Assembly (NCBI RefSeq): GCF_001628715.1
Contig: NZ_CP011120.1
Location: 1,698,501 to 1,762,500 of the forward strand
DNA length: 64,000 bases
Reading direction: 5' to 3'
Source of the DNA: Acetobacter oryzifermentans
GTDB lineage: Bacteria > Pseudomonadota > Alphaproteobacteria > Acetobacterales > Acetobacteraceae
Below the pieces are notes generated by a model. That model was not told the DNA's origin and did not search any database. It saw nothing but the letters and a program-made list of their open reading frames with translations. Each line of letters begins with the position of its first letter. Position 1 is the stretch's first letter. The position numbers and the translations under genes were made by a program. Positions 35,784 through 59,370 of the stretch are shown one piece after another.

Positions 35784-35835
35784 ATATTCTCTCCTCCCTT
35801 CGGTCATCCCGCCCGACGGTTGGTGGCTGAGCAAT

Positions 35836-36032
35836 GGCAGGTCTCCTGGCTCACGGATCATGGCCAACTGGTTCCAACCTTCCCGTTCCTATGAGAACAG
35901 TGGTCCACGTTCAAAGTGAACGAACCAGCGGCATACCGCCTACAGTTGCGGGAGCAGCCTCCGACTTTGCTTCCGGCCGATTGTCTGACCAGAACATAAC
36001 GGAATTCCCTATTACCCCGCTTGCGCGGGACC
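35836..36032 (-). promoter_or_regulatory. Cobalamin riboswitch
   Basis: On the minus strand the conserved blocks occur in order: GGTCCCGCGCAAGCGGGG, TAATAGGGAA, AATCGG, GGCTGCTCCCGCAACTGT, CCACTG, GGGAAGG and the 3' B12 box GAGCCAGGAGACCTGCC. This is the full aptamer of about 197 nt. The nearest downstream ribosome site is that of the 45-aa frame, then the Rieske operon. It faces away from mesX-mesD. Adenosyl- or methylcobalamin would be expected to shut off what follows. Confidence 0.9.
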
Positions 36033-36407
36033 ATTGAAGCGTTTGCTCCTGCACCATGCCGCCAAACGCATCCTACGTGCAAGCTGGAACATTCTGGAGC
36101 TGCGAAAGGCAGATATCAGTTTTTCGCATGTAGACCGAGACCGGATTGAGCTGATGCCCTGAAAACAAACATTACGCCAATCAGTTTCTGACTGCGTCTT
36201 TTCCTGAGACAATGCAGCCACATTAGTCCATGAACAATATTGATGTATTGATGAAATCAAATCATTTCTGCTCACGGGTTCGTTCAGGCATAAAGCTACC
36301 ATGACGATGACCACCACCGCCTAAAAAACTCAGAAGACAAACTTGGGGACGCCATGCCCCCGTGCCCGCATTCTGGTTTGCGGTGGAAATAGGGATGCAG
36401 AACAACA
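36033..36407. other. Divergent spacer between riboswitch and mesX
   Basis: About 375 bp that must hold the promoter of the riboswitch RNA and that of mesX. A coding-like plus-strand stretch at about 36040-36163 (AAKRILRASWNILELRKAD) ends in a stop and has no start; it could be a gene scar. Confidence 0.35.
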
Positions 36408-45504: not shown

Positions 45505-45952
45505 ATGATTAAAGATAAAGTCGTCATCATCACGGGTGCATCATCGGGGATCGGCGAAGCCACGGCAAAGCTACTGGCCGCAAAAGGGGCAAAAGTTGTC
45601 CTCGGTGCGCGCCGGGAAAGCCTGCTAAAACAGATCGTGACCGACATTGAAAAAGCCGGCGGTCAGGCTGCCTATCAGGTTCTGGACGTCACGAAGCCAT
45701 CTGATAACGAACGCATCGTACAATTCGCCAAGGACACGTTCGGTCGTGTGGATGTCATCTTCCTGAACGCGGGCCTCATGCCCAATTCTCCGGTTTCGGC
45801 ACTCAAAACCGATGACTGGAACAGGATGGTCGACGTCAACATCAAGGGCGTCCTGAACGGCGTCGCAGCCGTCATGCCATCTTTTCTGGAGCAGAAATCC
45901 GGACAGATCATTGCAACGTCATCCGTTGCTGGCATCAAGGCCTATCCGGGCT
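45505..45952 (+). pseudogene. Short-chain dehydrogenase cut by an IS element
   Basis: The first 149 residues are a good SDR: TGASSGIGEATAKLLAAKGAKVVLGARR, LDVTKP, NAGLMPNSPV, and the catalytic Ser in IIATSSVAGIKAYPG. At 45953 the IS3 end begins, so the YxxxK catalytic residues and C-terminus are gone. The frame runs 25 codons into the IS before stopping. Confidence 0.88.
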
Positions 45953-45992
45953 TGAATTGCCCCGGGTTTTGTGGAGACGTTTTTTATCTGAA

Positions 45993-47203
<1,211 letters not shown>

Positions 47204-47257
47204 GAATTCTTCTTACCTCACGGGTCTTTCTGTCTCCACAAAACCCGGGGCAATTCA

Positions 47258-47451
47258 CGTCCGATGCGCTGGAACTCGGCGAGGATCTGATCATGATCGG
47301 GAAACTGCTGGGTCACCGGGATCTCAAATCGACCGCACGTTACGCCCACCTCAAGAAAGAGCCCATCCAGCGCGCGGTCAAAGGGATCGACCTAAAAATT
47401 TCTGCTGCCCTTACCCTACCCAGAGAAACACTGGAGGCTACGATTGATTAG
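47258..47451 (+). pseudogene. C-terminal stub of a tyrosine recombinase
   Basis: In frame from the IS end: SDALELGEDLIMIGKLLGHR, then DLKSTARYAHLKKEPIQRA to a stop at 47451. LLGHRDLKSTARYAHL has the conserved His/Arg region and nucleophilic Tyr of phage/ICE integrases. Only the last 64 residues remain. It is a clue that the segment arrived on an integrative element. Confidence 0.85.
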
Positions 47452-47695: not shown

Positions 47696-48097
47696 CTATA
47701 ATTCCATGAGACACTTGATATTTACTTCAAGGCGTTCCCTATCCTTAATCTCACATTCCCATATAACATGGACGCGCCAACCTAACTTCTGCAATGCGAT
47801 CAGCGTCTCTTTATCTCGCACGCGATTACGTTCAATTTTTTTTGTCCAATACTCTGTGTTGCTTTTCGGAATCCGTGCTCCTCGTAGACAATCATGCCCA
47901 TGCCAAAAGCATCCATTCACAAATAAAGCCAATTTTCGACCTGGAAAAACCAAATCTGGAGAGCCAGGAAGATCTTTACGATGGAGCCGAAACCTGTATC
48001 CCATTGCATGGATAAGCTTTCTTACCACCAACTCCGGGCTCGTATTCTTCGACTTAACTGCCCTCATAGTTCGTGAACGAACAGGATCTACTTTCAT
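47696..48097 (-). CDS. vsr: Vsr-type DNA mismatch endonuclease
   Basis: A 133-residue protein with Vsr hallmarks: SKNTSPELVVRKLIHAMGYRFRLH, GSPDLVFP (catalytic Asp), LFVNGCFWHGHDC and a basic WTKKIERNRVRD. Vsr nicks T:G mismatches made by deamination of 5-methylcytosine. Its start overlaps the preceding stop (ATGA), and a Dcm-type methyltransferase heads the same operon, the usual partnership. Confidence 0.92.
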   Translation of the reverse strand: MKVDPVRSRTMRAVKSKNTSPELVVRKLIHAMGYRFRLHRKDLPGSPDLVFPGRKLALFVNGCFWHGHDCLRGARIPKSNTEYWTKKIERNRVRDKETLIALQKLGWRVHVIWECEIKDRERLEVNIKCLMEL

Positions 48098-49026
48098 CCA
48101 TCAAATTCAATTCTGAGGCTTGGGTCGCTCTCGCACTCGGCGATAATTTTATTATAGCGATCGATAATATCCCTCACTGCTGTCTGTCTGGCGTCCCGTT
48201 CAAACGTGCTCCACTCATAAACATTCGTCGCCAAAAACTGCTCGATCTCAATAATATCGAGGCGATCGTCTACTCCAACCTGCTTGGCGAGCGCTTTGGC
48301 ACCACCCACCCCATCTTCCGTAGTCACAATAAGAGGACGTAAACCGGAACTGAGATTGTCCTGGCATTTCCGAATAAGCGCTTCTCCAGGCGCAGTTGTG
48401 ACATGAATAGCCACGTCTCCGATCAAAAAATCTCCTGAGCGATTAGACGGCGCATCCGCAACCGAAAAACCGTGATGAAGAAGACTCCCTTCTGTGATCA
48501 CATCTAGCTTGGCTCCTACCAAATGCTGCATAACAGCACCCGCATACATAGTGCCTGAAACTTCGCGTTGACGTTCGACGGCCTGCGCCAGAAGGTCTCT
48601 TACACAAGCCCGTAAAGAACGGGATGGATCAAGTTTAAAAGTAAACGGAAGAGCATCAAAATACGCCTGAGCACGCTCTACCCAATATTTTTCCGCAGCA
48701 TCTAAATCCAATAAATTATGAGAATGCAGATCGTTTAAAACATCAATGTAGGCATTCATTCTCTCCATATTCCCTCGACTGGTTCTACCCCCTTCACTAG
48801 AGAGAATACGCTCAATGCCATGGTCTTTAAGTATTTTTTTTACCGCCCCACCGCCCAATCCGGCGACTTGCCCACCTTTTGTTGTTACGAACGAATTTTT
48901 ATCTAACGGAAATTGCTTCGATGCCGCATTCCTCGTTAGGATCAGAGCAAGAGATAAAGACCCTTTTGACAAGCCAATATAATCATCGTCAAACGCCGCC
49001 AATACTGCTCGTTGTGATAACATCAT
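48094..49026 (-). CDS. DUF4928 protein of a restriction-modification operon
   Basis: A 310-residue soluble protein. A C-terminal segment (GDFLIGDVAIHVTTAPGEALIRKCQDNLSSGLRPLIVTT) is typical of DUF4928, a family next to cytosine methyltransferases and thought to be a restriction-type nuclease. GDFLIGDVAIHVT may be a divergent nuclease core (D..D-x-x-I-x-V). The gene overlaps both neighbours by 4 nt. The catalytic role is inferred from context. Confidence 0.75.
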   Translation of the reverse strand: MMLSQRAVLAAFDDDYIGLSKGSLSLALILTRNAASKQFPLDKNSFVTTKGGQVAGLGGGAVKKILKDHGIERILSSEGGRTSRGNMERMNAYIDVLNDLHSHNLLDLDAAEKYWVERAQAYFDALPFTFKLDPSRSLRACVRDLLAQAVERQREVSGTMYAGAVMQHLVGAKLDVITEGSLLHHGFSVADAPSNRSGDFLIGDVAIHVTTAPGEALIRKCQDNLSSGLRPLIVTTEDGVGGAKALAKQVGVDDRLDIIEIEQFLATNVYEWSTFERDARQTAVRDIIDRYNKIIAECESDPSLRIEFDG

Positions 49027-49886
49027 AAATCTTTCTCAACTCGTCGAATTGCCGTCATTTCTGAGACCTGTTCTATCGTGCCAGCATGTCGCACAACTGT
49101 CTGACGCATCAACTCACTTCCTCGCATTTCCATCCGAAAGTCGACATGATGGATTTCCTCGGCATATCCACCAAAAGCAGCATTAAAAGCCGCGAGAATT
49201 TCAACTTCTCCAATATCCCGTCCTTTAACGAAAGGAATAGAAATTGAAGGGATATTCTCAGGAAACAGATAGATACACGGAGGAGGCACACAAAAAGGAC
49301 CAAGATTCGTCAACCGATCACCGTCTACGGATTTTGGACAAGGTCTACCAATTGTCGCACAAACCATATCCCACAACAGCACCCCATCCACCTGCTGGTT
49401 CCGCGCAATCATTTCAGCGCTAAGACGTGTGTGAATGCCCGACCAAGTGTTTCGTTGAGGATCTGCACCAGGATTGGAACAGATACTCCAGATCACAAAC
49501 TCATCAGCGAGTGGCGGTCGTTCAAAAATATTCGTGTTATTCCCATCAAGACAGCCCTTAAGGTCAATAACAGCAACACGTCCACTATTTAGACGAACAA
49601 TATAATCATTACGGTTTGCATTATCTGTCAGATCCCATCCAGCAATAAAACCGCCGTCTTCCATATGATTCAGCGCATGCTGAACAAACTCTCGTTTGCC
49701 ACGCATAGTGGCCGAAAACTGGCCACGGACACGCTCTATCGCGCCACGAAACAAACCAGACTGATAGAACTCTCGCTCATCCAAACCATGGTCGCCAAGT
49801 TTATGCGCTTCTGTTTTAAGTGTTTCAGCAAACCTCTCGATTTGATCGCGCAATCCCTTGTTCTGTTTACAGGGAATAATGGTCAT
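49023..49886 (-). CDS. PD-(D/E)XK-like protein, probable restriction subunit
   Basis: A 287-residue protein. NDYIVRLNSGRVAVIDLKG at about residues 90-108 fits a PD-(D/E)XK core (Asp, then IDLK). Near the N-terminus is FRGAIERVRGQFSATMRGKREF, basic. It sits between the methyltransferase and DUF4928 with 4-nt overlaps at both ends, so it is translated as part of the set. I recognise no named enzyme; likely the DNA-cleaving partner or a recognition subunit. Confidence 0.65.
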   Translation of the reverse strand: MTIIPCKQNKGLRDQIERFAETLKTEAHKLGDHGLDEREFYQSGLFRGAIERVRGQFSATMRGKREFVQHALNHMEDGGFIAGWDLTDNANRNDYIVRLNSGRVAVIDLKGCLDGNNTNIFERPPLADEFVIWSICSNPGADPQRNTWSGIHTRLSAEMIARNQQVDGVLLWDMVCATIGRPCPKSVDGDRLTNLGPFCVPPPCIYLFPENIPSISIPFVKGRDIGEVEILAAFNAAFGGYAEEIHHVDFRMEMRGSELMRQTVVRHAGTIEQVSEMTAIRRVEKDL

Positions 49887-51031
49887 GCCGCTTCCTGTTT
49901 CCCTTCGGAAACCATGCCAAGTAACGGTTCCAGGATATGCTGCGCCAGATGACGAACGACAGGCACAGCTACGCCATCCCCTGTCAGGTGATAAGCTTCA
50001 TTATAATTCTTAGGCAGCTTGTAATGATCTCCAAGCCCCATCAACCTTGCTGTTTCACGAGTGGAGATTAGCCGCGACCGAACCTTCCGGCCGTCAACAA
50101 CAATAATTGTCTGACGGCTTGAACCTCCTGCCGGCGTCCGAAGACAACCTGCGATATCGTCAAACCGCACTTCAGCACGCTGAACTTTCGCCCCGTTTTC
50201 ATCAAGACGTGTTCGTCTATAGATGGCTCCCACCATACGCCTGCCCGCACGTTTTGCAGCATTTACTTTGGCGAGATTGGTGGCAGACATCATCGAAATC
50301 AATCTTTCGGTTTCGCTGGCTGTATGCCAAGACACTCCAGTAGGCGCCTCCTCAATCAGATCAGCGAAAGTTGTATGCCGATGCGATGGAGTAGGAATAT
50401 TCCACCACAAAAATTGAGTTTGCGCCTTTTTTGATATTCCCTGAACAGCCCTCTTCAATCCATTGGTGTGAAACGGGTCAAGCGGTTCAGGAGATAACAA
50501 TGAAGGATGAATTTCGACATCCTTATGCACCCCGATCATGAACAAGCGAGGACGTGACTGGGGCACAAACAATGAGGCGTTGATTACGAGCGCTCCATAC
50601 CGATATCCGGTCTCGACAAAAGTCCGACAGATAGCGTCGAAATCCTGTCCCCCATGAGACGTCAGCGTGCCAATGACATTTTCAAGAGCTATAATTTTCG
50701 GGGCTCTTCCCTCTGAAACAAGCTCTCTCACGACATGCCAGAAAGGATAGAAGGTGCCAGAACGCTCTCCTTTAAGACCTGCGCCCCCTCCAGCCAACGA
50801 CAAATCCTGGCATGGGAATGAACCCCATACGAGATCTGCAACACCAGGTAAGTCTTCAACACGGACATCATTGACGTCCCCAACCCGCAATTCTCCTCCT
50901 GTTCCCCAGTTGGCCTGATAACTCAGGCCTTTTTTATGATCAAAATCATTGGCGAACAGACACGTCCAGCCGCCCCCCAGTCCCGCACGGGCCATCCCGC
51001 CGCCAGCAAAAAATTCGTAAAAACTAGGCAT
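49883..51031 (-). CDS. DNA (cytosine-5) methyltransferase
   Basis: A 382-residue Dcm-type enzyme: motif I FYEFFAGGGMARAGLGGG, motif IV GSFPCQDLSLAGGG (catalytic Cys at about residue 73), motif VI ALENV, motif VIII QSRPRLFMIG, and the C-terminal AYHLTGDGVAVPVV. The start at 51031 overlaps the stop of the upstream RHH gene (ATGCCTAG); an in-frame ATG at 51052 is an alternative. It modifies cytosine at an unknown site, and Vsr downstream repairs the resulting deamination. Confidence 0.93.
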   Translation of the reverse strand: MPSFYEFFAGGGMARAGLGGGWTCLFANDFDHKKGLSYQANWGTGGELRVGDVNDVRVEDLPGVADLVWGSFPCQDLSLAGGGAGLKGERSGTFYPFWHVVRELVSEGRAPKIIALENVIGTLTSHGGQDFDAICRTFVETGYRYGALVINASLFVPQSRPRLFMIGVHKDVEIHPSLLSPEPLDPFHTNGLKRAVQGISKKAQTQFLWWNIPTPSHRHTTFADLIEEAPTGVSWHTASETERLISMMSATNLAKVNAAKRAGRRMVGAIYRRTRLDENGAKVQRAEVRFDDIAGCLRTPAGGSSRQTIIVVDGRKVRSRLISTRETARLMGLGDHYKLPKNYNEAYHLTGDGVAVPVVRHLAQHILEPLLGMVSEGKQEAA

Positions 51032-51203
51032 TGGCTGTAGACCTGACGTCATCTTCTTGTAACGACACCACCTCACGCGCGAGCTTTTCTTCAATCGCTT
51101 CCGCTATCCAAGTGTTACGAGACACTCTTCCAGCCCTTTTTGCGCGCGCGTCATCAATCGCGCCAAACGTCTCCGTAGAGAGGCGCAGATTGATCCGGTC
51201 CAT
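51024..51203 (-). CDS. Ribbon-helix-helix regulator of the methyltransferase operon
   Basis: A 59-residue RHH/CopG-type protein: MDRINLRLSTETFGAIDDARAKRAG, then SRNTWIAEAIEEKLARE. ATG at 51203 is chosen because GGGAG lies 8 nt upstream; the frame is open back to 51281. It is the first gene of the operon and overlaps the methyltransferase start. Two palindromes upstream make a good operator, so autorepression, in the manner of R-M controller proteins, is inferred. Confidence 0.75.
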   Translation of the reverse strand: MDRINLRLSTETFGAIDDARAKRAGRVSRNTWIAEAIEEKLAREVVSLQEDDVRSTANA

Positions 51204-51238
51204 CGCGCGAACTCCCGAATTTTCTGTAGCATGGCTCA

Positions 51239-51257
51239 TGGCGCCATGGTGGCGCCA
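51239..51257. promoter_or_regulatory. Twin palindrome operator in the divergent spacer
   Basis: TGGCGCCA occurs twice (51239-51246 and 51250-51257), each a perfect palindrome, spaced 11 bp apart, one helical turn. RHH dimers bind such side-by-side sites. It lies 36 bp before the RHH start and 206 bp before the Z1 gene. Confidence 0.6.
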
Positions 51258-51462
51258 AATCGTATCTATGTCCAGCCCCATGTTCTCTAAATGTTTTCAT
51301 CCATAAACGCATGCTTATTTCTGCGTTCAATTTTACGACCCTCACATTACAGCTCCACCTGGTCGCAACGCAGAATGTCGTTTTTTGGGAGCATTGATCA
51401 CACGCATTGACATCCGCCTTGTGAGTGATATTCACAATAAGACAATTGGATATGAGGAAATT

Positions 51463-53799
51463 ATGAGCGACGACTTAGTAGGCATCAACGAAATTGCAGT
51501 AATGGCAGAGGTCACAACTCAAGCGGTAGCTAACTGGCGAGTGCGCTCTTCCGACTTCCCTCTTCCGATCAAAGAGCTCGCGTCTGGACCGATCTTTCGC
51601 CGTCCGCAAATTAGTGCATGGTTGAGGCGCAATAAACGCAAGTTAGGATCTCCAAAAATTCTTTCAACTTATTACGACCGCCTCAAAAGTTGTCGGGATG
51701 ATGATAAAGCACTCGCAAAGTGTATCGAGGAAACGGTTACTTCTCTCGAAACAGAAGCAACGTCTGGAGACCGTCCGGGCATGTTGCTCGGTAAAATTCA
51801 ATCAGGAAAAACACGTTGCTTTGTCGGCGTTATTGCCCACGGTTTCGACCGAGGTTTCGATATGGCCATAGTACTGACAAAGGGCACCAAAACTCTTTCA
51901 GCTCAGACAGTTCGTCGCCTTGAAACGGATTTCAAGGAGTTTATTGAAGACGACGAATTCCTTGTCCTTGATATTATGAATCTTCCTGGCACGCTTCGTC
52001 GAAGCGAACTACGACGAAAAATTGTAATTGTCGCCAAGAAACAAGCGCGAAACCTTGATCGCTTGATAGAATTTATTAGTAACCACAACGATCTACGCAA
52101 TCGTAAAGTATTGTTAATTGATGACGAGGCTGATCTTGCCAGCGTCCGTTTCGTCCGAAAAAAGGGTGATCAAAATATTAGCCAAGGCACCATTGCTGAT
52201 CAGATAGACCAACTTCGTCAGATGACACAGGGCATCGCCTTTTTGCAAGTGACAGCCACACCATATTCCTTGTACCTGCAGCCAGAAGGATATGAACACG
52301 CCGCTGATGGATCGACCTATGTATTCAAGCCCAAGCGCCCCGCATTTACAAAATTATTACCAATTCATGCTGGATATGTTGGAGGCGATGACTATTTTGG
52401 CTCCTTTGACACAAAAGACCCACGCTCCAAGCTTCTCGTAGAAGTGACTGAACAAGAACAAGACGCTCTACGCCGAGCAGATAGACGTCGTATTAGCGAG
52501 CATAACGTCCTTGAAAGTGACAACGTAGCAGGCCTACGTCGCGCTATCATTACGTTCATAGTTGCGGTCGGTGTTCGGCAATGGCAACAGCGAGAAGCTG
52601 GAGATCGACCTAAAAAATATGCAATGGTGATTCATAATGATATCCAGAGGGCAGCTCATGCGTGGCAAGATCAAGTAATTGATTGGATATTCTCGTCTAT
52701 TGTTAACGCAGCGGAGAAAAATCCAAATCATCTACGTCCGTTATTTGATAGAGCGTTTAATGACCTGAATTCCTCAGTGTCTGCAAACAAAGGACATATG
52801 CCACCTCGCGTTGAAGCCTTTGATGCTTTTATTGACGCTCTCCAGAGCGACGACGTGGTAGTTGAAAAAGTAAATTCAGATACAGATGTTATGGCTCTCC
52901 TTGATAATAATGCTGAACTAAAATTACGCACACCTTACAACATCTGGGTTGGGGGAAACATTCTCGATCGTGGCATAACTATTCCTAATTTAATCTCGTT
53001 CTATTATGGCCGCAATCCGAAAACTATGCAGGCTGATACAGTACTTCAACATTCGCGTATGTACGGCAATCGTGATCGAAAGGATTTGGCCGTCACGCGC
53101 TTTTACACTTCGCGCGCTGTTTATGAACGACTTTATACGATTAATTCTCTAGAAAACTCGCTTCGGAATGCTTTCCGAAAAGGTGCCCACGATGCGGGTG
53201 TAGTCTTTATTCAATCAGACACTGATCGCCGGGTTCGCCCATGCGCGCCAAACAAAGTATTACTAAGCAATGTAGTTACAGTTTCACCTGAATACCTTCT
53301 TCTTCCGAGTGATTTCCAGACCAAAGGTGGAGAAACTATGACTAGATTACAAAAAAAACTTGATCATCTAATAAAAAGAGAATGGCGAGATATCGACGGT
53401 TTTGTTTCTGTAGACCGAGACACTATCGTTGCAATTATTAACGTTATCAAAAAAACTATGGTTTTCGACGCTGTGAGTTTTGAGTGGAACGCTATGCTAG
53501 GCTTGATCGATTATTATACAGATGTCGTAAAAAATAGCGACAATCGAATTCTCGTTTGGGCGGAAACTGGTAGAAAGCTTTCACGTGCTGGATCAGGTGA
53601 CAAATCCGGTCGTTCTATTTTAGGTACTTCTCTTCGCAAAAAAGTATTAGATGAACCGCGCTCAAAGCCGGCATTGATACTACTCCAGCAAGAAGGAGGG
53701 AGAGATCTCGGGTGGACAGCACATAAATTTTGGTGGCCGTTGTTTGCAGCCCCTACCGACTCAGAGCCATGCATATTTGCGACGAAAGTTGCAGAATAA
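51463..53799 (+). CDS. Z1-domain SF2 helicase-like protein with N-terminal HTH
   Basis: A 778-residue protein. N-terminus: helix-turn-helix (GINEIAVMAEVTTQAVANW, then SGPIFRRPQISAWLRRN). Then Walker A GKIQSGKTRC at about residue 110, Walker B VLLIDDEADLA at about 219, motif III VTATPYS at about 263, then the Z1 region with GGNILDRGITIPNLISFYYGR at about 500 and QHSRMYGNR at about 528. The Z1 family is found with R-M and related defence genes. ATG at 51463 has GAGGAAATT just upstream; a longer frame from 51385 lacks one. It is divergent from the methyltransferase operon. Confidence 0.88.
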   Translation: MSDDLVGINEIAVMAEVTTQAVANWRVRSSDFPLPIKELASGPIFRRPQISAWLRRNKRKLGSPKILSTYYDRLKSCRDDDKALAKCIEETVTSLETEATSGDRPGMLLGKIQSGKTRCFVGVIAHGFDRGFDMAIVLTKGTKTLSAQTVRRLETDFKEFIEDDEFLVLDIMNLPGTLRRSELRRKIVIVAKKQARNLDRLIEFISNHNDLRNRKVLLIDDEADLASVRFVRKKGDQNISQGTIADQIDQLRQMTQGIAFLQVTATPYSLYLQPEGYEHAADGSTYVFKPKRPAFTKLLPIHAGYVGGDDYFGSFDTKDPRSKLLVEVTEQEQDALRRADRRRISEHNVLESDNVAGLRRAIITFIVAVGVRQWQQREAGDRPKKYAMVIHNDIQRAAHAWQDQVIDWIFSSIVNAAEKNPNHLRPLFDRAFNDLNSSVSANKGHMPPRVEAFDAFIDALQSDDVVVEKVNSDTDVMALLDNNAELKLRTPYNIWVGGNILDRGITIPNLISFYYGRNPKTMQADTVLQHSRMYGNRDRKDLAVTRFYTSRAVYERLYTINSLENSLRNAFRKGAHDAGVVFIQSDTDRRVRPCAPNKVLLSNVVTVSPEYLLLPSDFQTKGGETMTRLQKKLDHLIKREWRDIDGFVSVDRDTIVAIINVIKKTMVFDAVSFEWNAMLGLIDYYTDVVKNSDNRILVWAETGRKLSRAGSGDKSGRSILGTSLRKKVLDEPRSKPALILLQQEGGRDLGWTAHKFWWPLFAAPTDSEPCIFATKVAE

Positions 53800-53816: not shown

Positions 53817-54521
53817 TCACGAGATATTTCGCAGTTGCGGGCATTGTAAGCTGGTGGCAATTCTTGTCATCAGCAGATAGAGCGCCGGGGTCGTGAACAT
53901 GGTCTGAGCCTGGCTGACGAGCAGGCCACCGATCAGCGCGATGCCCAGAGGCTGGCGCAGTTCCATGCCGTAGCCGCCCATCATTACCAACGGCAGCGCG
54001 CCGAGGGCGGCGGCAAAGGTGGTCATGACGATCGGTCGCAGGCGCAGCAGGCACGCCTCACGGATAGCCTCGCGCCCCGTCATGCCCCGTTCGCGTTCGG
54101 CATGGATGGCGAAATCCACCAGCAGGATCGCGTTCTTGAGCGAGATGCCGGTCAGCAGCAGCATGGTGATCACCGCCATGCCCGAGAACGGCAGCCCGAA
54201 CAGGTCGAGTGCCATCACCGCCCCGATCCCGGCCGAGGGGATGGTGGAAAGAATGGTGAGCGGATGCCACACGCTTTCATACAGCATGCCCAGTGTCAGA
54301 TAGACGGCGAGCACAGCAGCGACGATCAGAATCTCACTGTCATGGGTGCTTTTGCCGACGTCTCCTTCATCACTCTGTAGTTCGCCGTTGATGGTTTCCG
54401 GCAGATGCTGGTTCCGCCACTCCTGATCGATGATCGCCTGCACCTGTAACAGACTGACCCCCGGCGTGAGTTCCAGCGCCAGCGAGGCGGAACTGGCGTA
54501 ACCGATATGGGTGACCGCCAC
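53817..54521 (-). pseudogene. C-terminal part of an RND efflux pump
   Basis: The minus frame reads from the IS end: ELTPGVSLLQVQAIIDQEW, VYLTLGMLYESVWHPLTIL, PFSGMAVITMLLLTGISLKNA and LRPIVMTTFAAALGALPL, the last membrane helices of AcrB/MdtB-type pumps. The first three quarters are missing, cut by the right IS3 copy. It does not function alone. Confidence 0.88.
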
Positions 54522-54575
54522 TGAATTGCCCCGGGTTTTGTGGAGACAGAAAGACCCGTGAGGTAAGAAGAATTC

Positions 54576-54885
54576 ATGAGCAATAAATCGAAGCGTTTTC
54601 CGCCTGAATTTCGTGAACGTGCAGCCTGCATGGTTCTGGAGGAAGAGAAGAACCATCCTTCGCGGTGGTCTGCGGTGATGGTGATCGCCCCAAAGCTGGA
54701 TATTCACCCTGACACGCTGTCAAAATGGACCCGTCTGCATGAGCGGGCCAATGCATCTGCGGTGAGTGACCTGCCTGATCGAGAGAAGATCAGGCAACTG
54801 GAGCGAGTGAACCGCGAATTGCGGCAGGCCAATGAAATCCTGCGTAAGGCTTCTGCGTATTTTGCCCAGGCGGAACTCGACCGCC
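54576..54885 (+). pseudogene. IS3 OrfA interrupted near its end
   Basis: Identical to the left-copy OrfA through [10 protein letters not shown], then broken by the insertion at 54886; only the last few residues are lost. The frame fuses into IS110 sequence and stops at 54989. Frameshift production of full OrfAB is no longer possible. Confidence 0.88.
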
Positions 54886-54898
54886 TATGTGGACGGCC

Positions 54899-55226
54899 GT
54901 TTAAGCGCAATACCTCACATTGTTCTCCCGATGTCATTTCTAAAACGTATTATTCTACCGGCTGGATGATGAATACCGATTTAACGTGAAGACCCGGTCA
55001 GATGCGCTCTTATGTCCGGCCTGTTTATGCGACTTTATGCGCTGGCCATCATGGGTGTGCGCTCACGTGTCAGGCACCAATCTGGTATCACGTGCTCAGG
55101 GGCACAGACGGTCGAACGGTATGGCCTGAACTGTTGCTGAATGACTGTCTTCCCATCACGTCGGTTCGTACATACTGCCGGATCTACCGGAGCAAGCTCC
55201 GGTGTCCATCGTTCTGCTGGTGCAGG
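54899..55226 (-). ncRNA. Non-coding end of the IS110 element, possible bridge RNA
   Basis: About 330 bp after the transposase stop contain no credible gene. IS110-family recombinases are known to use a structured bridge RNA from the non-coding end of the element to pair with target and donor; in IS1111-like members the long non-coding end follows the transposase gene, as here. No fold was computed. Confidence 0.35.
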
Positions 55227-56258
55227 TCAGCCTGCTGAAACACTGACACCAGCCGGACGATAGATCTCTTTACGTGACAACAACGCCCAGATGATACGAG
55301 CCATTTTATTGGCAAGTGCAACTGTTGCCAGACGCCTTGGACGACGCGCCATGAGTTCGCATAGCCACTGACCCGCAGCGCTATCCCACTTATGGGCACG
55401 ATGAAGCATGGCCGTCGCACCAAGAACCAGCAACGTTCTTATCTGCCGATTGCCCGTTTTGGTAATCCTTCCCAGACGGGTTTTACCGCCGGTAGAATGC
55501 TGACGAGGCACAAGCCCCAGCCAGGCGGCAAAATGGCGCGCAGAGGCGAAAGAGCCAATATCCGCGACCGAGGCGACAATCAGAGAAGCCGTTATGGGAC
55601 CGACCCCAGGGATGGTCATCAACCGACGCGCATCGTCATCGCTTTTTGCACGCGCCCGGATCTGCACTTCCAAAGCATCAATGCTCTGAGCGACCTTTTC
55701 ATAATGCTCAAATAACAACATGGCACTCTGCTTCATGGCAGCAGGCAGGTCGGCTGATGTCTCTATTTTTGCCATCAGTTCTGGCAGATGGCGTGTGCCC
55801 AGAGGGGCTATCAGCCCGAACTCGGAAGCAAGAGCCCGTAACGCATTACTCAGCATGGTCTGCTGTTTGACCAGAAGAGCGCGGGCAGAATGCAGTGACA
55901 AGACACCTTGCTGCTCTTCGCTCTTGATCGGAACACACATCGTATCAGGATGAGTCGCCGCCATGCAGATCGCAGCCGCATCAACAGCGTCATTTTTCTT
56001 GCCTTTTTTGACAAATGATTTGACCCGATCAGGAGGAACCAGTCTGACATCATGACCAATCCTGCTGATCACCCGTGCCCAGTAATGAGCTGATCCGCAG
56101 GCTTCCAGAACAACTTCACATGGGTCAAGTTTTGCAAAAAATGCTGAAACTTCACTGCGACCAAGCTTGCGCTTGAAAACGCACTTTCCAATTGCGTCAG
56201 CCCCATGAGCCTGAAAAACGGATTTGGCAATATCAAGGCCAATTATGCTAGCTTTCAT
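55227..56258 (-). CDS. IS110-family transposase (DEDD)
   Basis: A 343-residue recombinase. N-terminal DEDD domain: IGLDIAKSVFQAHG, VVLEACGSAHYWA and KKNDAVDAAAICMA. C-terminal Tnp20 domain: MTIPGVGPITASLIVASV and FAAWLGLVPRQHSTGGKTRLG with the conserved Ser in QHSTGG. It appears complete. Confidence 0.92.
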   Translation of the reverse strand: MKASIIGLDIAKSVFQAHGADAIGKCVFKRKLGRSEVSAFFAKLDPCEVVLEACGSAHYWARVISRIGHDVRLVPPDRVKSFVKKGKKNDAVDAAAICMAATHPDTMCVPIKSEEQQGVLSLHSARALLVKQQTMLSNALRALASEFGLIAPLGTRHLPELMAKIETSADLPAAMKQSAMLLFEHYEKVAQSIDALEVQIRARAKSDDDARRLMTIPGVGPITASLIVASVADIGSFASARHFAAWLGLVPRQHSTGGKTRLGRITKTGNRQIRTLLVLGATAMLHRAHKWDSAAGQWLCELMARRPRRLATVALANKMARIIWALLSRKEIYRPAGVSVSAG

Positions 56259-56277
56259 ACGGGCGGTCTCCTCCTGA

Positions 56278-57287
<1,010 letters not shown>

Positions 57288-57325
57288 ACAAAACCCGGGG
57301 CAATTCAATAGCCGCTGCACCTGCG

Positions 57326-57598
57326 TCAGAATGAAGAGTTCCTGCCGTCGGGAAGCGGCTGGGTGTTGCCGTGTGGCCGGTCTAGCCGGAGCAGTTGCAG
57401 CATGTCGTTCTCGTCAAGTTCAAAATCCCACACAGCCAGGTTCTCCGGCAGGCAAGTGGCCGTAGCCGTCTTCGGCAAGGGAACCAGCCCTTGTTTACGG
57501 TGCCAGCGAAGGACGATCTGCGCGGGCGGGCGATCATGCATGGTGGCAATCGACAGCACGACGCGGATATTGTCCGTTGAAAAATCTGCTTCGTCCAT
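57326..57598 (-). pseudogene. C-terminal part of an aldo/keto reductase
   Basis: The 90-residue minus frame reads PPAQIVLRWHRKQGLVPLPKTATATCLPENLAVWDFELDENDMLQLLRLD, the last helices and cofactor loop of aldo/keto reductases. The N-terminal barrel with catalytic Tyr is absent upstream of 57598. The IS3 end lies 18 bp past its stop. Confidence 0.82.
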
Positions 57599-58149: not shown

Positions 58150-59370
58150 ATGATTCGGCAGAGGTTATTACAAGACAAGGTGCTTTGCATTTTCTGTGAT
58201 AATGAAGTGGGCACTCGCACTAAACCTGAACATATTCTGCTCGACGCGTTAGGTGGGCGAATGACGACCAAATGGGCTGATTGCAATCACTGCAATCAAT
58301 CCTTCGGTGGGACGATCGACAAGGTTCTGCCTGAGCAGTTACGCATGCTCCGCAACATGTTCCAGATGAAAAGCGGGAGCGGTCAACCTCCACCCGGTCT
58401 GTCGAAAATCCTCTCATCGACCGGAACGATCACTCTCGATTCTCGTGGTAGACCCAAGCGCGTTGGGGGTAAACCATTCACTATCACACCACTGGGCAAC
58501 GAGCGCTATGATGTCAGTTTCAGCGTCGATAGCATGGAGGAATTTAGGAAATATGTTGCTCATGCTGCAGCGGCTATAGGCGTAACCGAGGATCATTTCT
58601 GGGCCAAAATTGAGGGACAGTACGCTTCCTTTCAGAACGAATATCCCGGCACACTTCACTCTCGGATCCAGTGCGGCGGTGAGGAAGTCGTCCGCTCGAT
58701 GGTAAAATCTAGCCTAGTCTTGCTGGCAACCCGTGTTGGGACGATGCCTTTAAAAGGCGCGGCTTTTGCCCAAGCCCGTGACTTCGTCGTCAAGGGGAGC
58801 GAAGACTTCCTGCAATGCTTCACCGCTGTAGATGCTCGTGATTTTCCTGAATCTGCCTATCAGTATTTTCTGGAAAACCATGGGCCGATGTTCAATCTCA
58901 TTTATGTCAGAAGCGATGATTATGGGCGAACTCTTGCTTATTATCACGCATTTAACATTGCTTCTTGGCAAATGGTGTTGGCTGAGAAAGGTGGGCCAAG
59001 AAATATTGAGATCGGGCTCGCATCCGATCCACTCAATCCGGCACGTTGGGACGGTGATCTGGCCACCAAGGTGTCACTCGATTTCGACTGGCTCAACGCA
59101 CCCGATGGCAGCAGACTCAATGACGTCTCGCTTGCGCGCGTGTCAACAGTTCTCAAGCTCCATCAGGATGTAAGCCGGGAACGAATTATCCAAAATGTCC
59201 TCAATGATGTCCTGGGACACTATTACGATGAAGGTGATATGATCGAGATGGATGAGAAGGGCAGAGCAGCCATAATCGAGATCAGTCAGAAGTTGGTCGC
59301 CGCGTTGATGCAGATTCCTACCAAGGAAAAATTTCTATTGAGACGGTCAAAACAACCTGGAGCAGAATAG
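58150..59370 (+). CDS. HNH-type endonuclease domain protein
   Basis: A 406-residue protein whose N-terminus has an HNH/zinc pattern: LCIFCDNE (Cys 13 and 16), KPEHILLDALGG, then CNHCNQSFG (about residues 45-53). The long C-terminal part has no recognised domain. GGAGC precedes the ATG by about 5-9 nt. It may be a nuclease of a defence system or a mobile element accessory gene; it is flanked by gene scars, not by partners. Confidence 0.72.
   Translation: MIRQRLLQDKVLCIFCDNEVGTRTKPEHILLDALGGRMTTKWADCNHCNQSFGGTIDKVLPEQLRMLRNMFQMKSGSGQPPPGLSKILSSTGTITLDSRGRPKRVGGKPFTITPLGNERYDVSFSVDSMEEFRKYVAHAAAAIGVTEDHFWAKIEGQYASFQNEYPGTLHSRIQCGGEEVVRSMVKSSLVLLATRVGTMPLKGAAFAQARDFVVKGSEDFLQCFTAVDARDFPESAYQYFLENHGPMFNLIYVRSDDYGRTLAYYHAFNIASWQMVLAEKGGPRNIEIGLASDPLNPARWDGDLATKVSLDFDWLNAPDGSRLNDVSLARVSTVLKLHQDVSRERIIQNVLNDVLGHYYDEGDMIEMDEKGRAAIIEISQKLVAALMQIPTKEKFLLRRSKQPGAE

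Follow-up and report, generated by a model that had tools for sequence, protein, structure and literature searches.

What kind of system arises when a single DNA methylase gene is followed by two unrelated nuclease genes? The question is raised by a cluster of six genes in a 64,000-nucleotide stretch of Acetobacter oryzifermentans NZ_CP011120.1 (the window, whose positions are used throughout). On the minus strand lie the genes for an RHH-like small regulator (85 amino acids, 51024..51281), a C5-cytosine DNA methyltransferase (382 amino acids from the ATG, 49883..51031), a PD-(D/E)XK-like core nuclease (49023..49886), a second nuclease of the DUF4928 family (48094..49026), both nucleases being putative Type II restriction endonucleases, and a Vsr mismatch nicking endonuclease (47696..48097), with overlapping start and stop codons; divergent from them, on the plus strand, is the gene for a Z1-domain protein with helicase motifs (51463..53799). 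The cluster, listed in a preliminary description of the sequence, is confirmed as real, and its reading there as one restriction-like system holds in part. The locus seems to be a mobile restriction-modification (R-M) island adjoined by an optional ATP-driven motor and, as judged from sequence, its second nuclease slot is a cassette.

As in Type II R-M systems, the methylase gene adjoins a putative restriction endonuclease gene, so classed by family and fold, not by activity. The methylase is matched by Pfam PF00145 (3.2e-45) and TIGR00675, and in PADLOC by DruM2 (551 bits) and MTase_II (355 bits); an alternative TTG start at 51094 is possible, and the ratio of nonsynonymous to synonymous substitution rates (dN/dS) is 0.06–0.14. 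The core nuclease carries the PD-(D/E)XK-like residues D94, D108, and K110. Its gene is broken in L096/L146 and L100/L145 (Kozakia baliensis, genome G142), where the methylase keeps a long, uninterrupted frame. In 11 viral loci with DUF4928, the core nuclease is found in none, and the methylase lies beside DUF4928 in nine, the remaining two being cut by contig ends; in four inspected plasmid stretches the methylase stands after an RHH-like gene and before DUF4928, and two of them also carry Vsr. The unusual D...H-x-T motif of the DUF4928 protein could mean that it is no longer a nuclease and serves instead as a DNA-binding or controlling partner. We regard this as unlikely, because DUF4928 is the only nuclease candidate beside the methylase in these nine viral and all four plasmid loci, PADLOC lists the family under Type II restriction enzymes, the purifying selection on its gene is the strongest among the genes compared, and at least part of its model matches a restriction-enzyme fold. 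The nearest solved fold is EcoT38I (7edb), to which sequence similarity was sought and not found; the EcoT38I target, GRGCYC, need not apply to DUF4928.

Regarding DUF4928 as a putative second cutter, its slot can be followed through related loci, in some of which a GIY-YIG protein is found. The methylase is followed by GIY-YIG in L164, with no match to the core nuclease; in L162 the GIY-YIG gene is divergent, with Vsr after it; in L163 a distant relative of the core nuclease lies 7 kb off; in L165 a Mrr-type nuclease lies alongside; and L004 carries both DUF4928 and GIY-YIG. Among the 93 nuclease rows of a tree, DUF4928 accompanies five, which form one group (support 89) inside a clade otherwise accompanied by GIY-YIG, so that one cassette replacement or addition explains the kind found in the window. 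The nuclease–DUF4928 pair recurs, with 23 contigs (matched by length) common to both best-120 lists versus 0.68 expected. In L012 (4432-6377), two core-nuclease homologues stand in tandem, the diverged copy occupying the second slot (214 bits; PADLOC, 74 bits).

Residues 255–318 of the methylase, its target-recognition stretch, have a mean identity of 0.70 across 74 distinct nuclease loci (minimum 0.47) and of 0.66 both in 29 viral nuclease loci and in six nearer DUF4928-only loci. The value falls to 0.28 in the seven DUF4928-only loci that lie farther off and to 0.11 in a CglI-type methylase. Six of the seven farther loci have a second type of stretch, also found in the methylases at two GIY-YIG loci from actinobacteria (0.50–0.57), and the seventh, L084, shows 0.28 to the latter. 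That two unrelated nuclease families accompany the same two methylase types is expected if the target is shared, without being proof of it. Differing synonymous divergence between the genes and the exchange of neighbours would also suit unrelated defence modules sharing one island by chance of place, an explanation that we consider improbable given the overlapping codons, the recurrence in distant genomes, and the methylase type in common. Least probable, by a little, is a heteromeric enzyme like those of Type IIT, with each nuclease as a subunit. The genes are indeed adjacent and overlapping, both proteins nuclease-like, and the 23 contigs shared, but each nuclease occurs beside a methylase without the other, and a GIY-YIG protein takes the partner's place in relatives.

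The mobile R-M island is worth comparing with known systems. Operons of Type II R-M systems that include Vsr (M, R, and V genes) resemble it in the C5 methylase, adjoining putative restriction enzyme, Vsr, and small controller; the island differs in placing two unrelated nuclease genes after a single methylase and in having a second slot that either DUF4928 or GIY-YIG can occupy. CglI and NgoAVII are R2H2 ATP-dependent restriction enzymes, whereas the island's two nucleases are without a Pfam match to a PLD-family nuclease plus B3-like DNA-binding domain. Druantia type II combines the DruM methylase with DruE/F/G partners; despite the DruM2 match, none of the remaining five proteins matches a Dru partner in PADLOC. 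The MZA set includes MutL-like, AIPR, and DUF4420-type partners, and the MzaC model scores 82.8 against a 1500-bit cut-off. Passages of one report describe MORC/paraMORC R-M systems as coming with superfamily II helicases and Vsr (PMC2292703). As already stated in the preliminary description for MutL, AIPR, and DUF4420, no GHKL/MutL-like, AIPR, or DUF4420 gene was found by Pfam among the nine open reading frames of 45.5–59.4 kb, nor MZA partners by PADLOC among the six proteins. In SGI1-related elements of cluster 7, genes for an AAA ATPase, Vsr, DUF4928, and a C5 methylase occur together, the passage concerned neither mentioning the core nuclease nor proposing a function (PMC9035990).

Vsr is matched by PF03852 (6e-30), TIGR00632 (152 bits versus a 97.85 cut-off), and E. 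coli Vsr 1cw0 (3.7e-29). A single frame of L009 (10487-11665), matched by Vsr and HNH-like profiles, suggests a Vsr–HNH fusion; Pfam gives Vsr only. The Z1-domain protein matches PF10593 (9e-24) and PADLOC Helicase_II (1.2e-59), with ResIII below cut-off (0.0047); its Walker A, DDEAD, and TATPY stretches are unchanged across 10 rows, its HTH matches PHROG 2620 (9.7e-5), its identity to a gonococcal homologue is 24.6% over 89%, and the dN/dS of its gene is 0.07 (versus L143). The RHH-like regulator matches PHROG 13890 (1e-23) and none of the curated families searched above cut-off; RHH-like profile matches occur in 31 of 80 nuclease loci and precede the methylase in the DUF4928-only plasmid loci L147-L150. 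The unstranded gap between the regulator and Z1-domain genes (51282..51462) holds a single 9-nucleotide perfect inverted repeat (51319-51327/51367-51375), and a promoter scan there gave chance level, with nothing pointing to function.

The insertion sequence (IS) brackets and recombinase stub described earlier are borne out by a left IS3-type element (45952..47257, minus strand; ALIL pseudoknot, HTH_Tnp_1), an inverted, identical right copy (54522..57308, plus strand) split by an IS110-family insertion, and the C-terminal stub of a tyrosine-type integrase (47260..47450, plus strand). The right copy truncates a C-terminal RND efflux pump fragment (53817-54398; ACR_tran positions 792-1020 of 1021), which also adjoins the island in L002. 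Flanking the bracket are pieces of a short-chain dehydrogenase and an aldo/keto reductase, both truncated (45505-45951 and 57326-57598), and immediately outside it lies a 406-amino-acid HNH_5 protein (58150-59370; 2.3e-9); a cobalamin riboswitch (99 bits) is found at 35819-36050.

Altogether, the component parts are of known kinds, and their interchangeable two-cutter arrangement looks new, if still unproven; in such an island, a single methylase would shield the cell against two unrelated enzymes that cut DNA.
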